From Pelomonas cellulosilytica (GTDB lineage: Bacteria > Pseudomonadota > Gammaproteobacteria > Burkholderiales > Burkholderiaceae_C): a stretch of 64,000 nucleotides of DNA. Made by a program: the position numbers and the translations under genes. The notes under the pieces were generated by a model, which saw only the letters and a list, made by a program, of their open reading frames with translations, was not told the origin of the DNA and made no database searches. The DNA lies in NCBI RefSeq assembly GCF_021353265.1, contig NZ_JAJTWU010000005.1, forward strand, positions 124,001 to 188,000. The letters are read 5' to 3'. Below are positions 5,438 through 21,700 of the stretch, piece after piece. Positions within the stretch are counted from its first letter, which is position 1; each line of letters opens with the position of its first letter.

Positions 5438-6316
5438 ATGTCGCACCCCGTCAAGCTCATCAGTCCCTACGACCTCGACGGCGAAGAGCCCTTTCCGCTC
5501 GACCTCTACGGCCAGCGTTTCCTGGCCCAGGGCGATTCGTGGTTCTCCATCGGCGCCATTCCGCCCTACCTGACGACCAACGTGCTGGCCGAGCTGGTGT
5601 TGCAACGTGGCGCCGTGGCGGTCAACTGCGCCGCACCCGGCGCCGTGCTGCGCCGCATGACCGACAGCGTTCGCAACCCGAAGTTCGTCGACCTGCTGTG
5701 CGGCAACGTGCAGCGCGAGTGGACCGCCATCCTCGTCTCCGGCGGCGGCAACGACCTCATCGAGGCCATCGGCGCGCCGCCCACGGCCGCGCGCGACCAG
5801 CGCCTGCTGCTGACGCCCGCCGAGCGCGGCACGCCGAACGACCCCGCCGGCTACCTCAGCGACGAGGGCTGGCAGACCTTCAGTACCTACCTCGGCGCCG
5901 TCTTCGACGGGCTGCTGGACCTGCGCGACAGCGGCGCCAGCCGGCTGAAGCCGCTCGTCATGCACGACTACGCGCTGCTTCGCCCGCGCCCCGCGCCGGC
6001 TGGCGCCGGCTTCGGCCCGTGGCTGCAGCCGGCGCTGGTGGACTTCCAGGTGCCTGAGGACGCGTGGCTGGGCATCGGCCAGCTGTTGATGCAACGCCTG
6101 GGCGCGCTGCTGAACCAGCTCGCCGCGGCCCGCATGGACGCCCATCCCGATGCCGGCCCCATCCAGATCGTCAACAGCCAGGCCGCCGGCCTCGTGCTGG
6201 CCGAGCGCGACTCGACCGGCGCCTCGGGCGACTGGGCCAACGAGATCCATCCTACGCGCGGCGGCTACGACAAGGTGGCCGCACGATGGGCCGAGGCGCT
6301 GGACGCACTGCCCTGA
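5438..6316 (+). CDS. SGNH-type hydrolase-like protein
   Basis: A 292-residue protein with the blocks of an SGNH/GDSL esterase fold: FLAQGDSWFSIG (nucleophile Ser in G-D-S), SGGGNDLIEA (block III G-x-N-D) and NEIHPTRGGY (block V with catalytic His). There is no signal peptide, so a cytosolic ester or acyl hydrolase is likely; the substrate cannot be inferred. AGGAG about nine bases before ATG 5438 supports this start over a TTG six codons upstream. It stands 66 bases after the head-GIN gene and 12 bases before slyX, and may be co-transcribed with slyX. Confidence 0.75.
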   Translation: MSHPVKLISPYDLDGEEPFPLDLYGQRFLAQGDSWFSIGAIPPYLTTNVLAELVLQRGAVAVNCAAPGAVLRRMTDSVRNPKFVDLLCGNVQREWTAILVSGGGNDLIEAIGAPPTAARDQRLLLTPAERGTPNDPAGYLSDEGWQTFSTYLGAVFDGLLDLRDSGASRLKPLVMHDYALLRPRPAPAGAGFGPWLQPALVDFQVPEDAWLGIGQLLMQRLGALLNQLAAARMDAHPDAGPIQIVNSQAAGLVLAERDSTGASGDWANEIHPTRGGYDKVAARWAEALDALP

Positions 6317-11483: not shown

Positions 11484-11673
11484 CTTGCACTGTGCGCGTC
11501 GGCGGCCCGGGCGTCTGCGGGTTTGCGATAGGTTGCGCCATTTCGGGGACGAGTTGTGGCTGGTGGCGACCAGCCTCAGGCAGCCGGCCTAATCAACCTT
11601 GTGGGCGGTGCTTCCAGACACGGGTCACCCGGCGCTTGCATACTCGCGCCCGACGCAACGAGGGAGGCACAAG

Positions 11674-14600
11674 ATGGCCCGTGGCAACGACGTTCAACTA
11701 GGCGGCATCACCGATCTGGTGCTGATCGCCGACATCAAACCCGGCTTTGTCGACGCACTGGAGGTGGCGACGTACGTGGACCGGCTGCGCAAGGTGCTGC
11801 GCACGCTCAACGGCCTGCGGCTGGGCTCGCGCGAGAGCAGCGCACCCGCCTCGCCCTACACCGACATCGTCGCCCGATGGCGCATCGTCCACTCCTTCCG
11901 ATGGGCCATCATCGACGGCAAGGACGGCGCACCCGACCGGCTGCTGCTCAACGTCAACTTCGATGGCGGCTGGGAGCCGTACATGCGCGTCATCTGGGAC
12001 CAGCTCGGCTCCACGCTGGACCTGATCCTGTGCCATGTGGAGGGATACGAGCTGTCGTGCAACTGCAGCTTCGAGACCTACGCGCGCTGGGTGCGCGCGC
12101 ACGAGATCTCGGCGGACTTCCTGTTCATCGAATCCGGCCGCACGGTCAGCGATGCCGAATACCTCGCCAAGCTGGAGGCCAGCCAGCGCGGCCGGGCCAG
12201 CGAGCTGGCGGCCGACCGCCTGCGCGCCCCGGCCGTCGGCGAGGTGACGCCGCTGCCCACGACGCCGGCCGACCGCTTCGCTATGGCCGCGCGCGGCCTG
12301 GTGCCGCTGGCCGGGCTGTTCACGCTTCAGCGCTACTTCAACGAGACCGCCTGGGACGGCCGTGTGCTGCTGCGCGCCGCGCAGGACGTGCTGTTCGAGC
12401 TGACGCGACTGGACACGCACGCGCAGTTCCCCATCGGCGCCGGCAACACGCCGGGCGAGCTGCTGCGGCGGCGTCATTTCGCGATGCTGCAGTGGTTCGA
12501 GACGCCGCTGCCCGCGCCCGCCGTGCAGGCCCGTGCGCTGGACGTGACAGATGTAGACCTGCAGGCTGGCATGCTGACCAAGCTGCCCACCAACCGCGGC
12601 GCGCTACTGCTTCTGCGCATCGCCCAGCCGGCCGCGGCGCTGGCCTGGCTGTCCACCGCGCCCACGACGGCCGAGGGCCAGCACCCGCCAGCCGCCGGCC
12701 CGCTGCAAGGCGTCTGGACCCAGTTGGCGCTGACGCTTGCCGGCCTGGCCGCGCTGGGCGTGCCGGCAGCGCGGCTGGAGCGCTTCCCGCAGGCGTTCAA
12801 GGAGGGCATGGCTGCACGCGCCGGCCTGCTGGGCGACGTGCGCCACAACCACCCCAGCCACTGGGCGCTGGCGCCGCATGTCAACGGGCGCGACCGCTTC
12901 GACCCCGCCACGGCCCATATGCTTGTGCAGCTGCGCTTTGCCAGCACCGACGCGGGCGAGGCGGTCACGCCGGCCGACCAGGCCCGCATCGAGGCCGCCG
13001 CGCAGGCGCTGACCCAGGGCACGGGCCTCGCGCTGATGGCCCTCGAGCCGCTGCGCAGCAACGCACTGGACCAGGAGAACTTCGGCTTCAAGGACGGCAT
13101 CAGCCAGCCTGTGCCGCAATGGCAGGCGCCGCAGCCCACCGGCCAGCGCTGGGACGACCGCGTGCACGACGGCGAGATCCTGCAGGGCTTCCCCACTGCG
13201 CGCGACAAGGGCTATGCCGTGCCCGAGCAGCCCGACCCGCTGCTGGACCGCGGCAGCTTCCTCGTCGTGCGCAAGCTGCGCCAGTACGTCGGCCGGCTGG
13301 ACGCGCGCGTGACGGCCGAGGCCGCGCGCACCGGACTGTCCAAGGAGGTGCTGCTGGCCAAGCTGATGGGCCGCTGGCGCACCGGCGAGCCGCTGGCCGA
13401 CGACAAGGCCGTCAATGACTTCAACTACGAGGCCGATGCCAAGGGCGCGCTGTGCCCCTTCCACGCGCACATTCGCCGCACCAACCCGCGCGACCAGGGC
13501 GCTGACATGGCCTTCGCGAAGGCTCGCATGCCGCGCATCCTGCGCCGCGGCATGAGCTATGGCCCGCCGCCCAACCGCCAGCAGCCGGCGGACGACGCCG
13601 ACCGCGGCCTCGTCTTCATGGCCTACAACGCCCACCTGGCCGAGCAGTTCGAGGTCGTGCAGCGCTGGGTAGCCGGCGGTAATGCCAGCGGTGGCTACTC
13701 CGCGCAAAACGACCCGCTGCTGGGTGTGGTGGACGGCAACGCGCCTCGCATCTACCCCTTCGAGCATGACAAGCGCGCCTACGAGATCGACCTCGGCCGC
13801 GAGCCCTTCGTCACGCTGCAGTGGGGCGCGTACTTCTTCGTGCCATCGGTGCGGGCGCTGAAGGCGCTGCCGGGTCTCGTTGAATTGCCGCTGCCGCAAC
13901 TTCCGGCCGCGGCGCTGCCGGCCGCCATGCCCGCGCCGGACGACGCTGACGGCTGGCGCGAGGCGCTGGAGGACCCCAACAAGCGCGACGCCACCTGGGC
14001 CTGGGTGCGCGCCCAGCCGGGCGGCGTCGTTGCCACCGCCTACGGCGTGCTCGTCGGCGCAGCCGACCGCGTGCAGGAGGTGCTGCGCAACAGCCCCGAC
14101 CGCTACTCCAACCGCGGCTACGGCCAGCGGATGGCCGACTCGGTCGGCGTCGGCTTTCTGGGACTGGACGACGACAGCGGCCACCGCGAGCAGGCACCGG
14201 CCGTCAACAAGATCCTGGAAAGCGTCACCGAGGCCGATGCCTTCATGGCCGCCTACCAGGTCGCCAGCGGGGGCATCGCCGGGCTTCGGCAGGAAGCGCA
14301 GGCGCTGCTGGCCGCCTTCCCAGTCAGCCAGAAACCGGCCGACCTGCCCACCGACACGCCGCTGGACCTGGAGCGCCTGAGTGAAGGCGTGCTGGCCAAG
14401 CTGTGCCAGGTCTGGTTCGGCCCGCCGGATGGCCGGCATGTCTGGGGCACCGAGTTCCACTCGCCGACCGAGCCCGCCGCGCCGCGCTGCCCGGCCGCGC
14501 TGTTTCGTGTGTCCCGCTACGTTTTCGGCCCGCACCCGACGCCGGCCGTCTGCCAGGCCGGGCGCGAGGCCGGCAGCGCCTTCACCGCGGCCGTGGGCCG

Positions 14601-15201
14601 CTGGCTGGACGCCACGCCGCCGGAGCAGCTGCCCAGGCTGACGCAGGCCATCCTGGCCGCCTCCCGCGCCGTGCCGGATGCGCCGCCCGACCTGCCGCTG
14701 CGTACGCTGGCCGGCGTCATGCTGGGCTTCCCGCCGACGACGCATGCCAACCTGCTGGCCACGCTGGCCATCTGGGTGCAGACGCGCAAGCTGTGGGAGC
14801 TGCAGCCGCAATGGCACGAGGTGCCCGCCACGGCCAGCCTGCCGGAGCGCTATACGGCCGCCGTCGCCCGCCTGCGCCCGGCGCTGGTGGCCACGCTGAA
14901 CTACAAGCCCACTCCCTTCCAGATCTGGCGCCTGGCGCGTACGGACCACCGGCTGGGCCAGGTGGACGTGAAGGCCGGCGACACCGTCGTCGCGGCGCTC
15001 GGCTCCGCCACGCAGCAGGACCCGCTGCGCCACCACGTCGTCTTCGGCGGCGACCGTGCCGACCCGCAAGGCGCACCGCCGCATGCCTGCCCGGGTTACG
15101 GCATGGGCATGGGCGTCATGCTGGGCGTCATCGCGGCCGTGCTGGACGCCGGCGTCATGCGCTTCACCGGGTCACCGACGGTGGTAGCGCTTTCGGTCTG
15201 A
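11674..15201 (+). CDS. DyP-type peroxidase / cytochrome P450-like fusion protein, 1175 aa
   Basis: Three parts are visible. Residues 1 to about 290 are a domain I cannot name. About 294-730 is a DyP-type haem peroxidase with FGFKDG (470-475, D474 being the family's catalytic Asp), FHAHIRRTNPR (H599 as likely proximal ligand) and ILRRGMSYG (R624/R625). From about 757 on it aligns with P450s: a helix-C-like GHREQ, an I-helix-like GFPPTT, then RLARTDHRLGQ..AGD at the spacing seen in P450cam. It ends with PHACPG (likely thiolate Cys1139). The P450 part is degenerate: the ExxR position reads A-T-L-N, the I-helix acid is absent and FxxG before Cys is QGAP. AGGGAGG precedes ATG 11674. No signal peptide and no reductase domain are seen. 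Confidence 0.82.
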   Translation: MARGNDVQLGGITDLVLIADIKPGFVDALEVATYVDRLRKVLRTLNGLRLGSRESSAPASPYTDIVARWRIVHSFRWAIIDGKDGAPDRLLLNVNFDGGWEPYMRVIWDQLGSTLDLILCHVEGYELSCNCSFETYARWVRAHEISADFLFIESGRTVSDAEYLAKLEASQRGRASELAADRLRAPAVGEVTPLPTTPADRFAMAARGLVPLAGLFTLQRYFNETAWDGRVLLRAAQDVLFELTRLDTHAQFPIGAGNTPGELLRRRHFAMLQWFETPLPAPAVQARALDVTDVDLQAGMLTKLPTNRGALLLLRIAQPAAALAWLSTAPTTAEGQHPPAAGPLQGVWTQLALTLAGLAALGVPAARLERFPQAFKEGMAARAGLLGDVRHNHPSHWALAPHVNGRDRFDPATAHMLVQLRFASTDAGEAVTPADQARIEAAAQALTQGTGLALMALEPLRSNALDQENFGFKDGISQPVPQWQAPQPTGQRWDDRVHDGEILQGFPTARDKGYAVPEQPDPLLDRGSFLVVRKLRQYVGRLDARVTAEAARTGLSKEVLLAKLMGRWRTGEPLADDKAVNDFNYEADAKGALCPFHAHIRRTNPRDQGADMAFAKARMPRILRRGMSYGPPPNRQQPADDADRGLVFMAYNAHLAEQFEVVQRWVAGGNASGGYSAQNDPLLGVVDGNAPRIYPFEHDKRAYEIDLGREPFVTLQWGAYFFVPSVRALKALPGLVELPLPQLPAAALPAAMPAPDDADGWREALEDPNKRDATWAWVRAQPGGVVATAYGVLVGAADRVQEVLRNSPDRYSNRGYGQRMADSVGVGFLGLDDDSGHREQAPAVNKILESVTEADAFMAAYQVASGGIAGLRQEAQALLAAFPVSQKPADLPTDTPLDLERLSEGVLAKLCQVWFGPPDGRHVWGTEFHSPTEPAAPRCPAALFRVSRYVFGPHPTPAVCQAGREAGSAFTAAVGRWLDATPPEQLPRLTQAILAASRAVPDAPPDLPLRTLAGVMLGFPPTTHANLLATLAIWVQTRKLWELQPQWHEVPATASLPERYTAAVARLRPALVATLNYKPTPFQIWRLARTDHRLGQVDVKAGDTVVAALGSATQQDPLRHHVVFGGDRADPQGAPPHACPGYGMGMGVMLGVIAAVLDAGVMRFTGSPTVVALSV

Positions 15202-15992
15202 TGAAGACGGCCTACGAAGCCGGCAGCGCCATCGAGGCGCACATGCTGGTCGACCTGCTGAAGCAGGAGGGAATCGACGCCCACATCCGCGGCGAGGCGC
15301 TGCAGGGCGCGGTGGGCGAGATTCCGGCGACCGGGCTGGTGCGGCTGGAAGTGGCGGACGCAGATCACCCGGCGGCACGGGCCGTCATCGAACGCTGGGA
15401 GCGCACGCAGGTCGAACCCACGCCGCGGCCTGAAGGTGCGCGGAAGTCGTCGACGTTGCGTGGCATGCTGATCGGCCTGGCCCTCGGCGTCGGCGGAACC
15501 TACGCCGCCTACCGCGCGCCGGCCTCCACGGAGGGTATCGACTACAACGGCGACGGGCAGCTGGACGAGAAATGGACCACCTCGCCCAACGGCCTGATGC
15601 TGAAGGCGGAAGTGGACCGCAACCTGGACGGCAAGATCGATTACGTCGTTCACTACGACGCCAAGGGGCGCGTCGCGTCCGCGGAGGCTGACGACAACTT
15701 CGACGGCGTGTTCGAGACCCGGCAATGGTTCAAGAACGGCAATGTCGCGGTGTCGGAGTCGGACACCGATGGCGACCTCTATCCCGACCTGCGCACCCAC
15801 TACACCCATGGTGTCGTCGACACGGTGGAGTTCATCAACCCGGCCACCGGCAAGCCGTTGCGCGTCGAACACTACGTGATGGGCGTGCTGAAGTCTGCAG
15901 AGGTGGACAGCGACGGCCGTGGCCGGCTGGACGTGCGACTCAGATACGGCAAGCTGGGCGACGTCGAATCACACGAGCCGCTGGAGAGGTGA
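15201..15992 (+). CDS. DUF2007-domain membrane protein with calcium-loop-like repeats
   Basis: A 263-residue protein. Residues 1-68 match DUF2007, a small ACT-like putative signal-transducing domain (YEAGSAIEAHMLVDLLKQEG). One transmembrane helix follows at about 88-105. The C-terminal part repeats acidic loops of the D-x-N-x-D-G kind: DYNGDGQLDE, DRNLDGKIDY, DDNFDGVFE, DTDGDLYPD, DSDGRGRLD. These resemble EF-hand or dockerin calcium loops and would lie on the far side of the membrane from the DUF2007 domain. The ATG overlaps the stop of the DyP-P450 gene (TGATG), so the pair is translationally coupled and probably works together. No known function. Confidence 0.75.
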   Translation: MKTAYEAGSAIEAHMLVDLLKQEGIDAHIRGEALQGAVGEIPATGLVRLEVADADHPAARAVIERWERTQVEPTPRPEGARKSSTLRGMLIGLALGVGGTYAAYRAPASTEGIDYNGDGQLDEKWTTSPNGLMLKAEVDRNLDGKIDYVVHYDAKGRVASAEADDNFDGVFETRQWFKNGNVAVSESDTDGDLYPDLRTHYTHGVVDTVEFINPATGKPLRVEHYVMGVLKSAEVDSDGRGRLDVRLRYGKLGDVESHEPLER

Positions 15993-16131: not shown

Positions 16132-16806
16132 CTACTTTCGGCGCCGCGCTAGGCCTGCCATGCCGAATGCGCTCAAGACCAGCGCCAGGCCATGCGGCTC
16201 CGGCACCTGCACAGGCTGCGCGGGGCCAAAAACCGGCTGTGAGCTGTTGCAGCTCGCTCCCGGCAAGCCAACGCCGGCTCCGGCAATGAGGACGTTTTGA
16301 CCGTCGCCTCCGTTGAGGCACGAAGCGCCGGTCGCTGAACCGGTGAGCACATCGTCGCCCGCGCCACCCCAAAACTCGTTGACATTGCCGGCACTGGCGA
16401 TCAGTACGTCGTTTCCCGCACCCCCGAGTGCCACAAACTTCATCGGTGGCATGCCGGCAGGCATTGCGATGGTGTCGACGCCGCTCAGGTCGAGCACGTC
16501 GTCGCCGGTGCCCATGTCGATGCGCACTTCGGTCACACCCGTCAACGAGCACCGCACGGTGCTGAACTCCCCGCTACAGCCTGGCGTGACGACGGTGAAC
16601 GAGAGACCGAAGAAATCCAGCTCGGAACCCGACAGCGTAGCCGTCAACAGGTCGTCTCCACCATCCGCGGTCGCTATCAGCACTGTGCCATTGATGCCGA
16701 TCGTGGCCGCCTCGGCCGGACCGGCCGGACCGGCCCCTGCGAACACGGCCACCAGCGCCACGGCGGCGACCCGCCCCAGTTGAACGCGGTGCCTTGCAGG
16801 TTTCAT
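16132..16806 (-). CDS. PEP-CTERM protein with RTX-like Gly/Asp repeats
   Basis: A 224-residue exported protein. The signal peptide ends near AEAATIG. The middle has Gly/Asp nonapeptide-like units (GTGDDVLDLSG, GGAGNDVLIA, GGAGDDVLTG, GGDGQNVLIA) of the type that bind calcium in parallel beta rolls. The C-terminus is a PEP-CTERM sorting tag: VPEP, a hydrophobic helix, then ARRRK. Exosortase would remove the tag, usually in strains that make exopolysaccharide; no exosortase gene is in this window. AGGAG precedes ATG 16806. Five Cys residues suggest disulphides. Confidence 0.85.
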   Translation of the reverse strand: MKPARHRVQLGRVAAVALVAVFAGAGPAGPAEAATIGINGTVLIATADGGDDLLTATLSGSELDFFGLSFTVVTPGCSGEFSTVRCSLTGVTEVRIDMGTGDDVLDLSGVDTIAMPAGMPPMKFVALGGAGNDVLIASAGNVNEFWGGAGDDVLTGSATGASCLNGGDGQNVLIAGAGVGLPGASCNSSQPVFGPAQPVQVPEPHGLALVLSAFGMAGLARRRK

Positions 16807-17408: not shown

Positions 17409-20400
17409 TCAGCAGCGGTGGTGGGGGCGTTGCAGGAAGCCGGCCATGCCCAGCCGGGTGAGTTCGGCGCGGGCGCGGTCCAGCGCGTCGGGCCAGCCGG
17501 CGTCGAGCTTCAGCTCGGCGGCCAACAGCGTCGTGACGGCGGCTTCGTGCGCCGAGTCGCGGCGGTCGGCCACGCGGCGGGCGAGGGCGACGTAGCGCCG
17601 CGCCTGCGTCGCATCCCCGGCGCAGGCGGCCAGCCGCGCCGCGGCGCGGTAGGCCATGGCGCCACCGATCCAGTCATGCTGCCGCCCGCGCTGCAGCGCC
17701 AGCGCGATGTGGTGGCGCGCGGCGCGCGCATGACCCTGCACCGCGTAGATGTCGGCCAGCCAGCCATGGTTGAAGCTGCTGTAGAGGCCGCCGCCGCGCG
17801 GGGCCAGCCACGCGGTGGCGTCGAGGATGCGCTGCGCCGCGCCCGGGTCGGCCGACTGCATCCAGGCGCCATAGGCAGCCGCAGCATGGCCCATCGCGCA
17901 GGTGAACATGCTGCGCACCTGCGCGCCAACGCGGTGGGCCACGTCAGCGGCTTCGCGGGCCTCGGCCCAGCGGCCCTGCCACAGCAGCACGGCGGCCCGC
18001 CAGCCCTGGATGCTGGCCTCCACCGCATGGCCGCTACCGGCGAACGGCGCCAGCGCCTCGGCGAAGAGCGCATGCGCCTCGTCGAAATGCCCCTGGTCGC
18101 CGCGCACATAGGCGCGGCAGCACAATGAGAAACCCAGGCCGATGCGGTTGATAGCGCTCTTGCTGGCGCGCGAGCGCTGTCGGCCGATGGCCAGGTCCAG
18201 CATGGGCAGCGCATCGGCGTAGTGCGCCGCGGCAGCCTGCAGCTGGCCGACGGTGCCCGGCAGCTGCGCCAGCAGGGCCTGGTCGCCGCATTGCTCGGCC
18301 TTGGCGACGGCGGAGCGGGCATGGCGCAGGCTGACACGCGTCTCGCCGAGCGCATAGCCGACGTAGGCCAGCCAGTACTCGGTGCGGGCGATCAGCCCGG
18401 GGTCGCCGTCGGCCTCGGCGAGCGCGGCGGCATGGCGCAGCACGCGCAGGTCGTCCTGCGACGCGTCGAACACGCAGGCCATGCCCAGGCGCTGCGCAAT
18501 GCCCACCCAGCGGCGGTGGCGCAGGCGCGTGGCCTCCTCGCTCTCGTCGGGTGTTTCGAGGAATTCCAGCGCCGCGAGCGCGGCGCGGAACTGCTTCTTG
18601 GCACGGTCCAGCGCCGACACGGCCAGCGCCTGGTCGCCTGCGGCTTCAGCATGCAGCGCGGCGGCGGCCCAGTCGTTGGCGGCGGCGGCGTGGTAGGCCA
18701 GCTGCTCGTGCAGCTGGCTCTCGGTGCCGCCGCGCGCCGTCAGCTCGATGCGGATGCGCCGGTGCAGTGCCTGACGCTCGTGCAGGCCGGTGGCCTCGTA
18801 GACGACATCACGCGTGATGCCGTGCTTGAAGCGCAGTTGGCCAGGCAGCTGGTCGGGAAAGATGAAATCCTGCACCGCCAGCGCGCGCACGGCCGGGTGT
18901 TGCTCGCCGCAACCGGACAGCGCCTCCAACAGCCACGCGGGGATGACGTTGCCGATGACGGCCGCCACACGCACGAGCGCGGCCTGCTCGGGCAACAGGC
19001 GGCCGACGCGGGATTCGACGAGGGCAGCCAGCCAGGCCGAGCTGCTCTGGCCCTGCACCAGGCCGTCGGGCGTCTCGGCCGCGGCGTGGCACAGCTCCTC
19101 GATGAACAGCGGGTTGCCGCCCGCGTGCCGCTGCACCTCGGCGGCGACGAAGGGGTCGCCCTGCGGCAACAACTGCTGCACGGCGTGGGCGGCCTCGCGC
19201 TCGGCCAGCGGCGGCAGGTCGATGATGTGGGCGCCTTCGTCGTGCGCGGCCAGCCGGGCGGTGGCGGGCCGGCTGGCGCTGAGCAACAGCAGCGGCAGGC
19301 TCTGGCGGGCGGCCGTCGCGCGCAGCCGGTGCAGCAGCCGCATGGATGCGTCGTCGGCCCATTGCAGGTCGTCGATGAAGACCAGCTGTGGCGCACGGCG
19401 CGCCAGCGCTGTCATCAGCGCCAGCAGCGCATCGGCGCGGTCGCCCGGCGCGCTGTGCTGCGCGGCGGCCAGCTCGGCGGGCGGGTCGCCCATGCCGTCC
19501 AGCGCCCGCAGCATCTGCAGGAAGGGCTGCAGCGGCTCGGCGCTGAGGTAGCTCTCGCAATAGCCGCGGTGGATGTGGCAGGGCTGCCCCGCGTGGGCCG
19601 CCAGCTCGGCGGCGTGGCGCAGGAACTCCTCGGCCAGCCGCGTCTTGCCGACGCCCGCGCCGGCGCGCACGCCCAGCCACAGCGTCTGGCCCGACAGTGC
19701 GCCGCCGAGCGCGGCTTGCAGCTGGGCCAGCTCGGCCTCGCGGCCGACGAAAGGCGTCAGGCCACGGCGCACGCTAGCGTCAAAGCGCCGCCCCACGGCG
19801 GCGCGACCCAGCACGCGGTAGGCGGCCAGCGGCGTGGCGCGCCCGCGCAGCTGCAGCGTGAGTCGCGGGCCGGTGTCGAAGAACTGGCTCTGCAGGCCCA
19901 GGCTCTCTTCGCTGGCGATGATCTCGTCGGCCTTGGCGGCCTCGGCCAGCCGCGCGGCGATGTTGGGGGCGTTGCCCAACAACTCGAAGCGGCCGCGCAT
20001 CTGGTCGCCGTCGTTGATGAGCACGATGCCGGCGTGAATGCCGCTGTGCAGCGTGAGGCCGCGGAAGCCCGAGGGCTTGGGGCCTGGCGGCACGAGGCGG
20101 CGCACGGCGGCATGCAGCTCCAGCGCGGCCTCCGTGGCGCGGCGGCCGTCGTCCTCGCGCACCTCCGGATGGCCGAACACGGCCAGCATGCCATCGCCCT
20201 GGATGCGCGCGATGACGCCGCCGTGGTGCGGCACGATGCGCTCGTGTACCTCGCGCAGCGCCGCGAGCATGGCCGCGTAATGCTCGGCCTCCATCCACTC
20301 GGCCATCGCCGTGGAGCCGCTCAGGTCGGCGAACAGCAGCGTCAGCAGCCGGCGCTGACCGGCGCCGGCGGTGTCGGGAGTGGCGGCGGAGACGGGGGAT

Positions 20401-20429
20401 GCGGTCATGGTGACTTCATCCGGGGTCAT
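17409..20429 (-). CDS. Class III nucleotide cyclase with AAA ATPase and TPR-like region
   Basis: A 1006-residue soluble signalling protein. The N-terminal class III cyclase domain (about 26-210) has both metal aspartates (D35 in FADLSGST, D79 in QGDGMLAVFG) and the transition-state N-x-x-x-R in NIAARL. The base-selecting position reads Glu in FELLG, where adenylate cyclases usually have Asp. A STAND/AAA ATPase follows (P-loop AGAGVGKT ending at 263, Walker B LVFIDDLQWAD at 349-359). From about 600 on it is Ala/Leu-rich helical repeats of TPR type. ATG 20429 or 20408 may be the start; the former has CGGAG nearby. It is 20 bases after the 20450 gene. Confidence 0.88.
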   Translation of the reverse strand: MTPDEVTMTASPVSAATPDTAGAGQRRLLTLLFADLSGSTAMAEWMEAEHYAAMLAALREVHERIVPHHGGVIARIQGDGMLAVFGHPEVREDDGRRATEAALELHAAVRRLVPPGPKPSGFRGLTLHSGIHAGIVLINDGDQMRGRFELLGNAPNIAARLAEAAKADEIIASEESLGLQSQFFDTGPRLTLQLRGRATPLAAYRVLGRAAVGRRFDASVRRGLTPFVGREAELAQLQAALGGALSGQTLWLGVRAGAGVGKTRLAEEFLRHAAELAAHAGQPCHIHRGYCESYLSAEPLQPFLQMLRALDGMGDPPAELAAAQHSAPGDRADALLALMTALARRAPQLVFIDDLQWADDASMRLLHRLRATAARQSLPLLLLSASRPATARLAAHDEGAHIIDLPPLAEREAAHAVQQLLPQGDPFVAAEVQRHAGGNPLFIEELCHAAAETPDGLVQGQSSSAWLAALVESRVGRLLPEQAALVRVAAVIGNVIPAWLLEALSGCGEQHPAVRALAVQDFIFPDQLPGQLRFKHGITRDVVYEATGLHERQALHRRIRIELTARGGTESQLHEQLAYHAAAANDWAAAALHAEAAGDQALAVSALDRAKKQFRAALAALEFLETPDESEEATRLRHRRWVGIAQRLGMACVFDASQDDLRVLRHAAALAEADGDPGLIARTEYWLAYVGYALGETRVSLRHARSAVAKAEQCGDQALLAQLPGTVGQLQAAAAHYADALPMLDLAIGRQRSRASKSAINRIGLGFSLCCRAYVRGDQGHFDEAHALFAEALAPFAGSGHAVEASIQGWRAAVLLWQGRWAEAREAADVAHRVGAQVRSMFTCAMGHAAAAYGAWMQSADPGAAQRILDATAWLAPRGGGLYSSFNHGWLADIYAVQGHARAARHHIALALQRGRQHDWIGGAMAYRAAARLAACAGDATQARRYVALARRVADRRDSAHEAAVTTLLAAELKLDAGWPDALDRARAELTRLGMAGFLQRPHHRC

Positions 20430-20449: not shown

Positions 20450-21700
20450 TCAGGCGTGCAGTGGCAGGAGGTCGGTCTCCGCCGTCGTGCGCGGTGCGTC
20501 CGGCGGCAGGTCTTCCTCGCGCAGGCCGAGGTAGATGGGCTCGCCGTTGCGGCGGTGGATGTTGATCTTGGCGTTGTAGACGCGGTGGATGCGCCCGTGC
20601 TTGTCGGCCACCTGGTATTCGCTGATGCCCCACAGGCCCGAGGCGTCGCGCCGGCCGGTCAGGTAGCAGGCGATCTCGTCGACCTCGGAGCCGGCGAGCT
20701 TCAGGCCGTTGAGGCTGCGCAGCGGCGCGCGGGTGCGCTCGACGAAGTCGAGGCTGTCGATGCGCACATCCTCGCCGGAGGTCTCGTCGCGCATCATCGT
20801 GTTGAACTTGCCGACCAGGATCTGGCCGGGCTCCGCGCGCTCGATCATGCGGGCCAACTCGATGGTGACCTGGCCGACCAAGTAGCTGAAGGAAGTCGGA
20901 TTCAGGCCTTCGGACTGATAGAACTCGTAGTGCGAGCCGACGTGGAAGCAGGCGCGCAGCCGCGGCACGGACTCCGGCCGCGTGGCGCGCTCGTGGGCCA
21001 GTGCGTTGTCGGCCAGGATGAACTGCATCAGCTGGTAGAGCTCGACGTTGGCCTCCACGCCGCGCATGCGGTTCCAGATGTAGAAGCCGTCGCCCGTCGT
21101 CGTGCGGGCGAAGTTGATGTTGATCTCGCGGTCCAGCAGCTTGGCGTAGGCCGCGTTGACCGAGCACGACAGGCTGTTGAGCTGCACGACCTGCTGCAGC
21201 GGCGTCAGCAGCGAAAAGCCGACGGCGTCGAACAGGATGACGGCCCGGTCTTCCACCAGGCGAACACCGTAGCGCGCGGCGATGGCGGCGATCAGCGGCA
21301 GGCCCAGGCCCTTCTCCGGCGAGAACGGCAGGCTGATGAAGCGGGGTTTGACGCCGAGATCCTCGCTGACGGCATCGAAGGCCTGTGCGTCGAGGTGCTC
21401 CTGGTTGGACAGCAGGTTGTCCAGCAGCCGCGCGCGGCGGGCCAGCTCCTCGGGCGGCAGCCGGCCGTCGTCCAGCGCGTACTCGGTGAGCATCTGGTGC
21501 GGTGCCACCAGCACGCGCAGGCCGCGCGCCTCGGGCGTCCACGCGAAGATGAGGTTGTCGCCGAGGTTCCAAAGCGCGTAGAGCGCCTGGTCGAGCAGGA
21601 TGATGTTCTCGCGAAGGTGGGTTTCGCTCACGGTGGCCGGCGCGGGATAGGCCATGAAGCCATCCAGCCATGACCGGCGTTTGCGCAACTCTTCTTTCAC
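20450..21700 (-). CDS. Divergent class III cyclase-like protein, 416 aa
   Basis: The N-terminal 150 residues are a domain I cannot name. From about 150 on, the pattern follows class III cyclases: VILFDAVGFSLLT (D158 aligns with the first metal Asp), TTGDGFYIWN (D204 with the second), then a segment resembling VGxxVNxAaR in which VGQVTIELARM has Thr for the conserved Asn but keeps the Arg. A PGQILVGKF strand follows. It may be a weak cyclase or a regulatory pseudo-cyclase that pairs with the true cyclase encoded immediately downstream. The GTG at 21700 is the likely start. The C-terminal 80 residues are another unassigned domain. Confidence 0.65.
   Translation of the reverse strand: MKEELRKRRSWLDGFMAYPAPATVSETHLRENIILLDQALYALWNLGDNLIFAWTPEARGLRVLVAPHQMLTEYALDDGRLPPEELARRARLLDNLLSNQEHLDAQAFDAVSEDLGVKPRFISLPFSPEKGLGLPLIAAIAARYGVRLVEDRAVILFDAVGFSLLTPLQQVVQLNSLSCSVNAAYAKLLDREININFARTTTGDGFYIWNRMRGVEANVELYQLMQFILADNALAHERATRPESVPRLRACFHVGSHYEFYQSEGLNPTSFSYLVGQVTIELARMIERAEPGQILVGKFNTMMRDETSGEDVRIDSLDFVERTRAPLRSLNGLKLAGSEVDEIACYLTGRRDASGLWGISEYQVADKHGRIHRVYNAKINIHRRNGEPIYLGLREEDLPPDAPRTTAETDLLPLHA

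Follow-up and report, generated by a model that had tools for sequence, protein, structure and literature searches.

The described proteins closest in layout to the one examined here join two enzymes on one chain. In the fungal dioxygenase (DOX)-P450 fusions (PpoA, LDS, DOX-AOS), a peroxidase-type haem enzyme precedes a self-sufficient P450, HxC is kept, and the I-helix site holds Asn, Thr or a nonpolar residue, as it does in prostacyclin or thromboxane synthase (excerpt of PMC13049297). The CYP5619 fusions of oomycetes likewise place a P450 with a degenerate motif and a haem peroxidase/dioxygenase on one chain (excerpt of PMC5919972), and in a catalase-lipoxygenase (LOX) fusion of Acaryochloris a catalase relative acts on hydroperoxides (excerpt of PMC11719350). 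The locus described here lies in a 64,000-nucleotide stretch of Pelomonas cellulosilytica DNA (hereafter the window), where a single gene encodes an N-terminal domain (N-domain), a DyP peroxidase and a C-terminal P450-like half. A sequence-only reading of this DNA had proposed a DyP fused to a degenerate P450, a bacterial counterpart in layout to the PpoA-type fusions with an unrelated peroxidase; the layout is indeed alike, and the first half is a DyP, whereas that of the fungal enzymes belongs to the peroxidase-cyclooxygenase superfamily. The parts of the gene are as follows.

11660..11667, forward strand: GAGGGAGG, ribosome-binding-site-like sequence 5' of the ATG
11674..15201, forward strand: DyP-P450 fusion gene, 1175 aa, open reading frame intact
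11674..12528, forward strand: N-domain, residues ~1-285
12526..13893, forward strand: DyP peroxidase, residues ~285-740
13093..13095, forward strand: Asp474 of GFKDG
13468..13470, forward strand: His599 of FHAHIRR
13543..13545, forward strand: Arg624 of LRRG
13894..15198, forward strand: P450-like half, residues ~741-1175
14713..14742, forward strand: I-helix segment, residues 1014-1023, GVMLGFPPTT instead of AGx(D/E)T
15088..15090, forward strand: Cys1139 of HACPGY, candidate haem-thiolate ligand

The fusion is real. No stop codon interrupts the 1175-residue frame, GAGGGAGG would make a good ribosome-binding site for it, and the union of DyP and P450 on one protein is borne out by the single frame, by profile and by fold model. 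A count of the same architecture in other genomes, which the sequence-only reading had suggested, found it complete and uninterrupted in 36 of the 40 loci of a wider scan (one genome per species), the other four (L035, L038, L064 and L065) starting inside the fusion at a contig end; these loci carry the names Roseateles, Pelomonas, Paucibacter, Variovorax and Xenophilus, together with several metagenome bins. All 20 genomes of the genus that were examined, the window's own included, hold the fusion, 17 of them in one frame and three (G001, G011 and G013) split over contigs or cut, and two other genera of the same family hold it nearly whole (residues 6-1175 in G032 and 7-1157 in G030). A frameshift or assembly join is ruled out by the single frame in 36/40 loci and 17/20 genomes of the genus. 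When the P450 half alone was searched against 369 genomes of the class, only the window's own genome was returned, so the family is narrow. A fragment of the fusion that lacks the 5' part lies beside a Tn3 transposase on the Sphingopyxis mobilizable plasmid pDB-1 (L116:7962-10391, forward strand), adjoined by a gene joining cyclase and AAA domains (cyclase-AAA) and a Crp/Fnr gene; the plasmid record labels the protein only as 'Dyp-type peroxidase domain-containing protein'. The view that no protein of this architecture has been characterised agrees with our search of the open-licence PubMed Central literature (no preprints, few subscription journals), among whose listings no described DyP-P450 fusion was found. 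We know of no other peroxidase-P450 fusion built on the DyP fold, and this would be the first.

The DyP half is matched by TIGR01413 over residues 393-729 (E = 1.2e-29; 103.6 bits, above the cut-off of 100.5) and by Pfam Dyp_perox_C (28.6 against a cut-off of 20), and its best relative in the PDB is 8re3, deposited as 'Peroxidase, putative' (E = 1.7e-43), with named DyPs next. The full motif set previously read from the sequence is present. Asp474, His599 and Arg624, which we take to be the distal Asp, the proximal haem ligand and the distal Arg, respectively, are each found in 36 of 36 aligned members, as is Gly475 of GFKDG; the alignment comprises the window protein and 35 of the 36 whole loci, L059, whose match figures are identical to those of L058, being omitted. 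The stand-alone DyPs 8re3, DyP2 (4g2c) and Alr1585 (5c2i) resemble this half but, judging from chain lengths, have neither N-domain nor P450.

A domain search returned no Pfam match for the N-terminal 290 or the C-terminal 436 residues of the window protein, and Pfam p450 matched the P450 half of none of 19 members; P450 identity is therefore verifiable by profile and model only. A profile built from 19 members reached 4tpn (titled TxtE; E = 0.002). The AlphaFold2 model of residues 736-1175, built from 38 sequences, has a predicted local distance difference test score (pLDDT) of 87.4 and a predicted template modelling score (pTM) of 0.89, and the 50 Foldseek matches listed for it are all P450s (best E 3.7e-9; 1620 of 1652 matches at E ≤ 0.001, the best 50 of the 1652 being seen by name), with moderate TM-scores (0.52-0.66) and root-mean-square deviations of 6-9 Å among those 50. 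By its modelled fold the C-terminal half is a P450, as had been supposed for the last 400 or so residues, and chance likeness is ruled out by profile and fold. Its candidate haem-thiolate Cys1139 (FGG...HACPGY in the window protein), singled out beforehand, is invariant in 36/36 aligned members, as are R1086, F1124, H1137 and G1141. The two losses that had been called from the sequence hold throughout the family. At the positions of ExxR, the motif that P450s usually keep for haem binding, the window protein reads A-T-L-N, and Glu occurs in 0/36 members and Arg in 6/36. The I-helix, whose acid-alcohol pair in P450s serves O2 activation, reads L-G-F-P-P-T-T in the window protein and G-F-x-P-T in the family, x-Pro replacing the pair in 36/36 (Pro1021 invariant; residue 1020 Pro in 32, Leu in 3 and Ala in 1). 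The family thus presents a P450 without ExxR and without the acid-alcohol pair, yet with its Cys kept under selection. CYP5619 is the reverse, keeping EXXR with a degenerate Cys loop, and has a different peroxidase (excerpt of PMC5919972).

All three parts of the chain are under purifying selection. In the two closest pairs, the ratio of nonsynonymous to synonymous substitution rates (dN/dS) was 0.16-0.18 for the N-domain, 0.18-0.23 for the DyP half and 0.17-0.21 for the P450 half, and in three more distant pairs 0.30-0.35, 0.38-0.58 and 0.36-0.55, respectively. Because the ratios are alike in both halves, the P450 half is held about as firmly as the DyP, and in the distant pairs the N-domain is under firmer constraint than the other parts. 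The first 290 residues had been described as an unassigned third domain. That they form a domain is supported by homologues outside the family, often separate genes of ~200 aa near a DyP, and a model of residues 1-310 (pLDDT 76, pTM 0.73) shows beta-alpha-beta-beta-alpha followed by helices; as to identity, Pfam, PDB profile and Foldseek searches gave nothing significant (best Foldseek E 0.09).

Related DyPs outside the family indicate with what such an enzyme keeps company. They occur in 15 of 398 genomes of the phylum (the window's own included), in 3 of 369 of the class, in some relatives and in 87 plasmid records. In 27 related loci scanned, the Sphingopyxis fusion among them, the partner was a P450, near the DyP or fused to it, in 13, a catalase relative in 8 and neither detected in 6 (one of these, L121, carries a gene annotated 'catalase' with a very weak profile match), and no locus held both; L095/L096 and L101/L102 are each pairs from one genus and not independent counts. 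That P450 and catalase relative exclude each other as DyP partners is suggestive only, because several loci share one genus or family. On one chain, P450 precedes DyP in L101, L102, L107 and L122, the first three also matching the N-domain weakly between the two enzymes; DyP precedes a P450 with intact ExxR in L021/L112, which a genome of the same genus carries as a second copy; and DyP is joined to a catalase relative in L099:5888-8587 (forward strand). One genome among the 20 of the genus carries the whole fused L021; a search for its P450 half at 1e-25 through 200 genomes of the family came back empty, which in that search is not evidence of absence. As separate genes, the order is two N-domain genes, DyP, patatin, P450 and FadL in L095 and L096; N-domain gene, another small gene with no clear match, DyP and P450 in L104; and cyclase-AAA, P450 with a C-terminal extension, DyP and patatin in L110, the extension having a likeness to the N-domain by eye only. 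Such linkage in varied orders is evidence of the Rosetta-stone kind for joint function of the parts. Among 11 more plasmid loci, fetched with flanks of only 4 kb, 10 have an N-domain gene close to the DyP. The core is the DyP/N-domain pair, to which the wider clan adds a second haem enzyme optionally. One related DyP is adjoined by a RoxA-like cytochrome c (PF21419; L097:3888-5279, reverse strand).

The altered I-helix is shared by the linked P450s. ExxR and Cys are retained in all twelve DyP-linked P450s outside the family, and none of these has the I-helix acid (in L023 an Asp stands three residues past its position), with Pro at the alcohol position in 8/12; the acid is likewise absent from 7/7 family representatives. 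The acid-alcohol pair is present in 17/17 control P450s. These controls, which represent only part of the genomes with a linked P450, came from 18 loci picked from the p450 list in ten genomes, L140 being dropped (no protein past the filter). The filter required E..R and a Cys loop, so ExxR in the controls is true by construction; the I-helix lay outside it. Since the acid is absent in 12/12 linked P450s and present in 17/17 controls, the pair's loss accompanies DyP linkage, and ExxR would have been lost from the family subsequently. The linked-P450 profile gives all seven representatives higher scores than the control profile does, and hhalign likewise prefers the linked set (99.3%, 6e-21, vs 96.2%, 2e-9); when the search is turned round, two controls fall among the linked P450s, and linked L021 and L108 come after several controls.

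We propose that the fusion is a self-sufficient two-haem enzyme passing a hydroperoxide, probably of a lipid, between its haems, a reading to which we assign a probability of roughly 0.4. The DyP half would make or consume a peroxide-level intermediate, and the P450 half, which has neither the acid-alcohol pair nor a fused reductase, would rearrange or reduce a hydroperoxide at its Cys-ligated haem, like the P450 halves of the fungal dioxygenase fusions. The substrate would probably be an unsaturated fatty acid or lipid. For this family, which unlike the fungal fusions has lost the ExxR Glu, we infer haem in both halves, hydroperoxide chemistry and a lipid (fatty acid) substrate. To our knowledge the natural substrates of the DyP family are mostly unknown; if the proposal is true, the family gains a testable class of physiological substrate, and the occurrence of the two partners as adjacent genes in other bacteria hints at an unstudied route for handling peroxides, perhaps those of lipids.

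The catalase-like partners bear on the nature of that substrate. Their profile has as best PDB match 3e4w (5e-9), then the coral allene oxide synthase (AOS)-lipoxygenase entries 1u5u (8e-7) and 3dy5 (1e-5), with true catalases ranking lower (from 1.3e-4), and R-x-x-x-Y is kept in 8/8. Unlike in the catalase-related AOS/LOX fusions, the partner here is a DyP, and the window's second half is a P450. P450 and catalase-relative folds rearrange fatty acid hydroperoxides in known oxylipin pathways, so the partners of these DyPs belong to the two folds associated with that chemistry, which these members may share; exchanging one for the other recalls how oxylipin synthesis in fungi and plants differs from that in corals, which suggests convergent use of one chemistry. 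Lipid genes accompany some loci. The gene run of L095 includes patatin (2e-22) and FadL (4e-79), with homologues in L096; in L110 a patatin follows the DyP (2e-10); and the fusion is directly preceded by a patatin-like gene in L058 (27.4 bits, short of the 27.7 cut-off), L059 and L062. The window itself offers a possible lipid partner, weakly linked:

5438..6316, forward strand: GDSL-type hydrolase ~5 kb upstream of the fusion (PF00657 E 0.0011, below cut-off)

As a general partner this gene is ruled out, its homologue being shared by the window and L051 only. The chain of one family member, from another genus (L019:2989-7896, reverse strand), ends with a GDSL-like hydrolase domain (PF13472, below cut-off at E 1.1e-4), to which the window's GDSL gene has no match at 1e-5. 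Taken with the catalase and P450 folds, the patatin, FadL and GDSL neighbours of some loci would favour a lipid hydroperoxide. A broader proposal, which we put forward tentatively and regard as doubtful, is that a DyP replaces the lipoxygenase or dioxygenase in a widespread, undescribed bacterial oxylipin-like system, whose interchangeable partner, either a P450 that lacks the I-helix acid or an allene-oxide-synthase-like catalase relative, would be fused in several orders and, in some genomes, fed by lipase and FadL.

Several observations weigh against the two-haem hydroperoxide enzyme. The ExxR Glu is lost from the family, and dN/dS rises to 0.3-0.6 in the more distant pairs. The 11 further plasmid loci hold one clear catalase relative (L152), one weak one (L149) and no P450. 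In our reading of the alignments the distal His is kept in only 3/8 catalase-like partners and is Asn in 5/8, a difference from catalase-related AOS, and the Pfam catalase model matched 1 of 6 scanned (L100, among L099, L100, L103, L105, L111 and L120). Lipid genes lie near the fusion in few family loci (L058, L059 and L062; GDSL in the window, L051 and L019), and FadL is limited to one genus.

The loss of ExxR, with Glu in none of the 36 members and Arg in six, would also suit a P450 half that is a haem-free pseudoenzyme, stabilising or gating the DyP half or holding its substrate, which we think unlikely. P450-derived glycosyltransferase activators are a known kind of P450-fold helper, and the linked P450s of L107 (1.4e-7) and L104 (3.1e-15), both outside the family, match the activator model TIGR04515; both matches are far below the cut-off, and TIGR04538 scores above TIGR04515. 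Invariance of Cys1139, His1137, Gly1141, Phe1124 and Arg1086 is unexpected with haem lost, and CYP157 P450s also stand without a full ExxR, although it is Arg, not Glu, that is missing there (excerpt of PMC3599690).

Loss of both acid and alcohol from the I-helix, Pro standing in for the latter, is shared with the CYP152 peroxygenases (OleT, P450BSbeta), in which Arg-Pro replaces the pair (excerpt of PMC5377825). The P450 half might accordingly be pictured as an H2O2-driven peroxygenase that hydroxylates a substrate while the DyP half keeps peroxide in bounds, but we judge this quite unlikely: residue 1020 is Pro, Leu or Ala, so that the Arg with which CYP152 binds carboxylate is absent, and the peroxidase half would be expected to compete for H2O2. 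No CYP152 was noticed among the best 50 Foldseek matches or among 60 further matches.

Downstream, another gene converges on the fusion:

17409..20429, reverse strand: cyclase-AAA protein, 1006 aa (PF00211 and PF13191)

Of 41 family loci, the window included, 36 have such a gene in the ~10 kb fetched, and almost everywhere it is convergent with the fusion (L065 has both on one strand); 6/27 related DyP loci have it too. Among the family loci it is missing from L026, where the contig ends, and from L032, L034, L043 and L046. Rough arithmetic from copy numbers and locus lengths in a subset of genomes gives ~0.2 such neighbours expected against 5 seen. Of the components of Pycsar defence, which pairs a cyclase with an effector, PycC models match the cyclase domain (best 6e-17), and PADLOC matched none of the other four window proteins given. 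The cyclase-AAA protein is probably regulatory. Its frequency, together with the Crp/Fnr gene beside the Sphingopyxis fragment, could be read to mean that the fusion is a stress or signalling component of this neighbour, for example a peroxide or lipid sensor feeding a cyclic-nucleotide signal. We consider this improbable, since some of these genomes abound in such cyclase genes (G787 with 28 matches, G914 with 13), the two genes are mostly convergent and not one operon, four loci (L032, L034, L043 and L046) lack the cyclase-AAA gene, and the enzyme itself would be left unexplained. That the protein is simply a conventional DyP oxidising dyes or lignin, its extra domains decorative, is very improbable, for although the DyP motifs are typical of the class, a P450 or catalase relative is linked in 21/27 related loci and selection on the P450 half resembles that on the DyP.

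Two further genes flank the fusion and the cyclase-AAA gene:

15201..15992, forward strand: DUF2007 gene (PF09413 8.6e-17), overlapping the fusion stop codon by one base
20450..21700, reverse strand: 416-aa protein upstream of the cyclase gene, no Pfam match

A conserved operon with the overlapping DUF2007 gene is ruled out, the gene having its only homologue among the loci searched in L026, and homologues of the 416-aa protein occur in 22 loci, the window included. Between the fusion and the cyclase-AAA gene lies a PEP-CTERM protein with weak RTX-like repeats (16135-16806, reverse strand).

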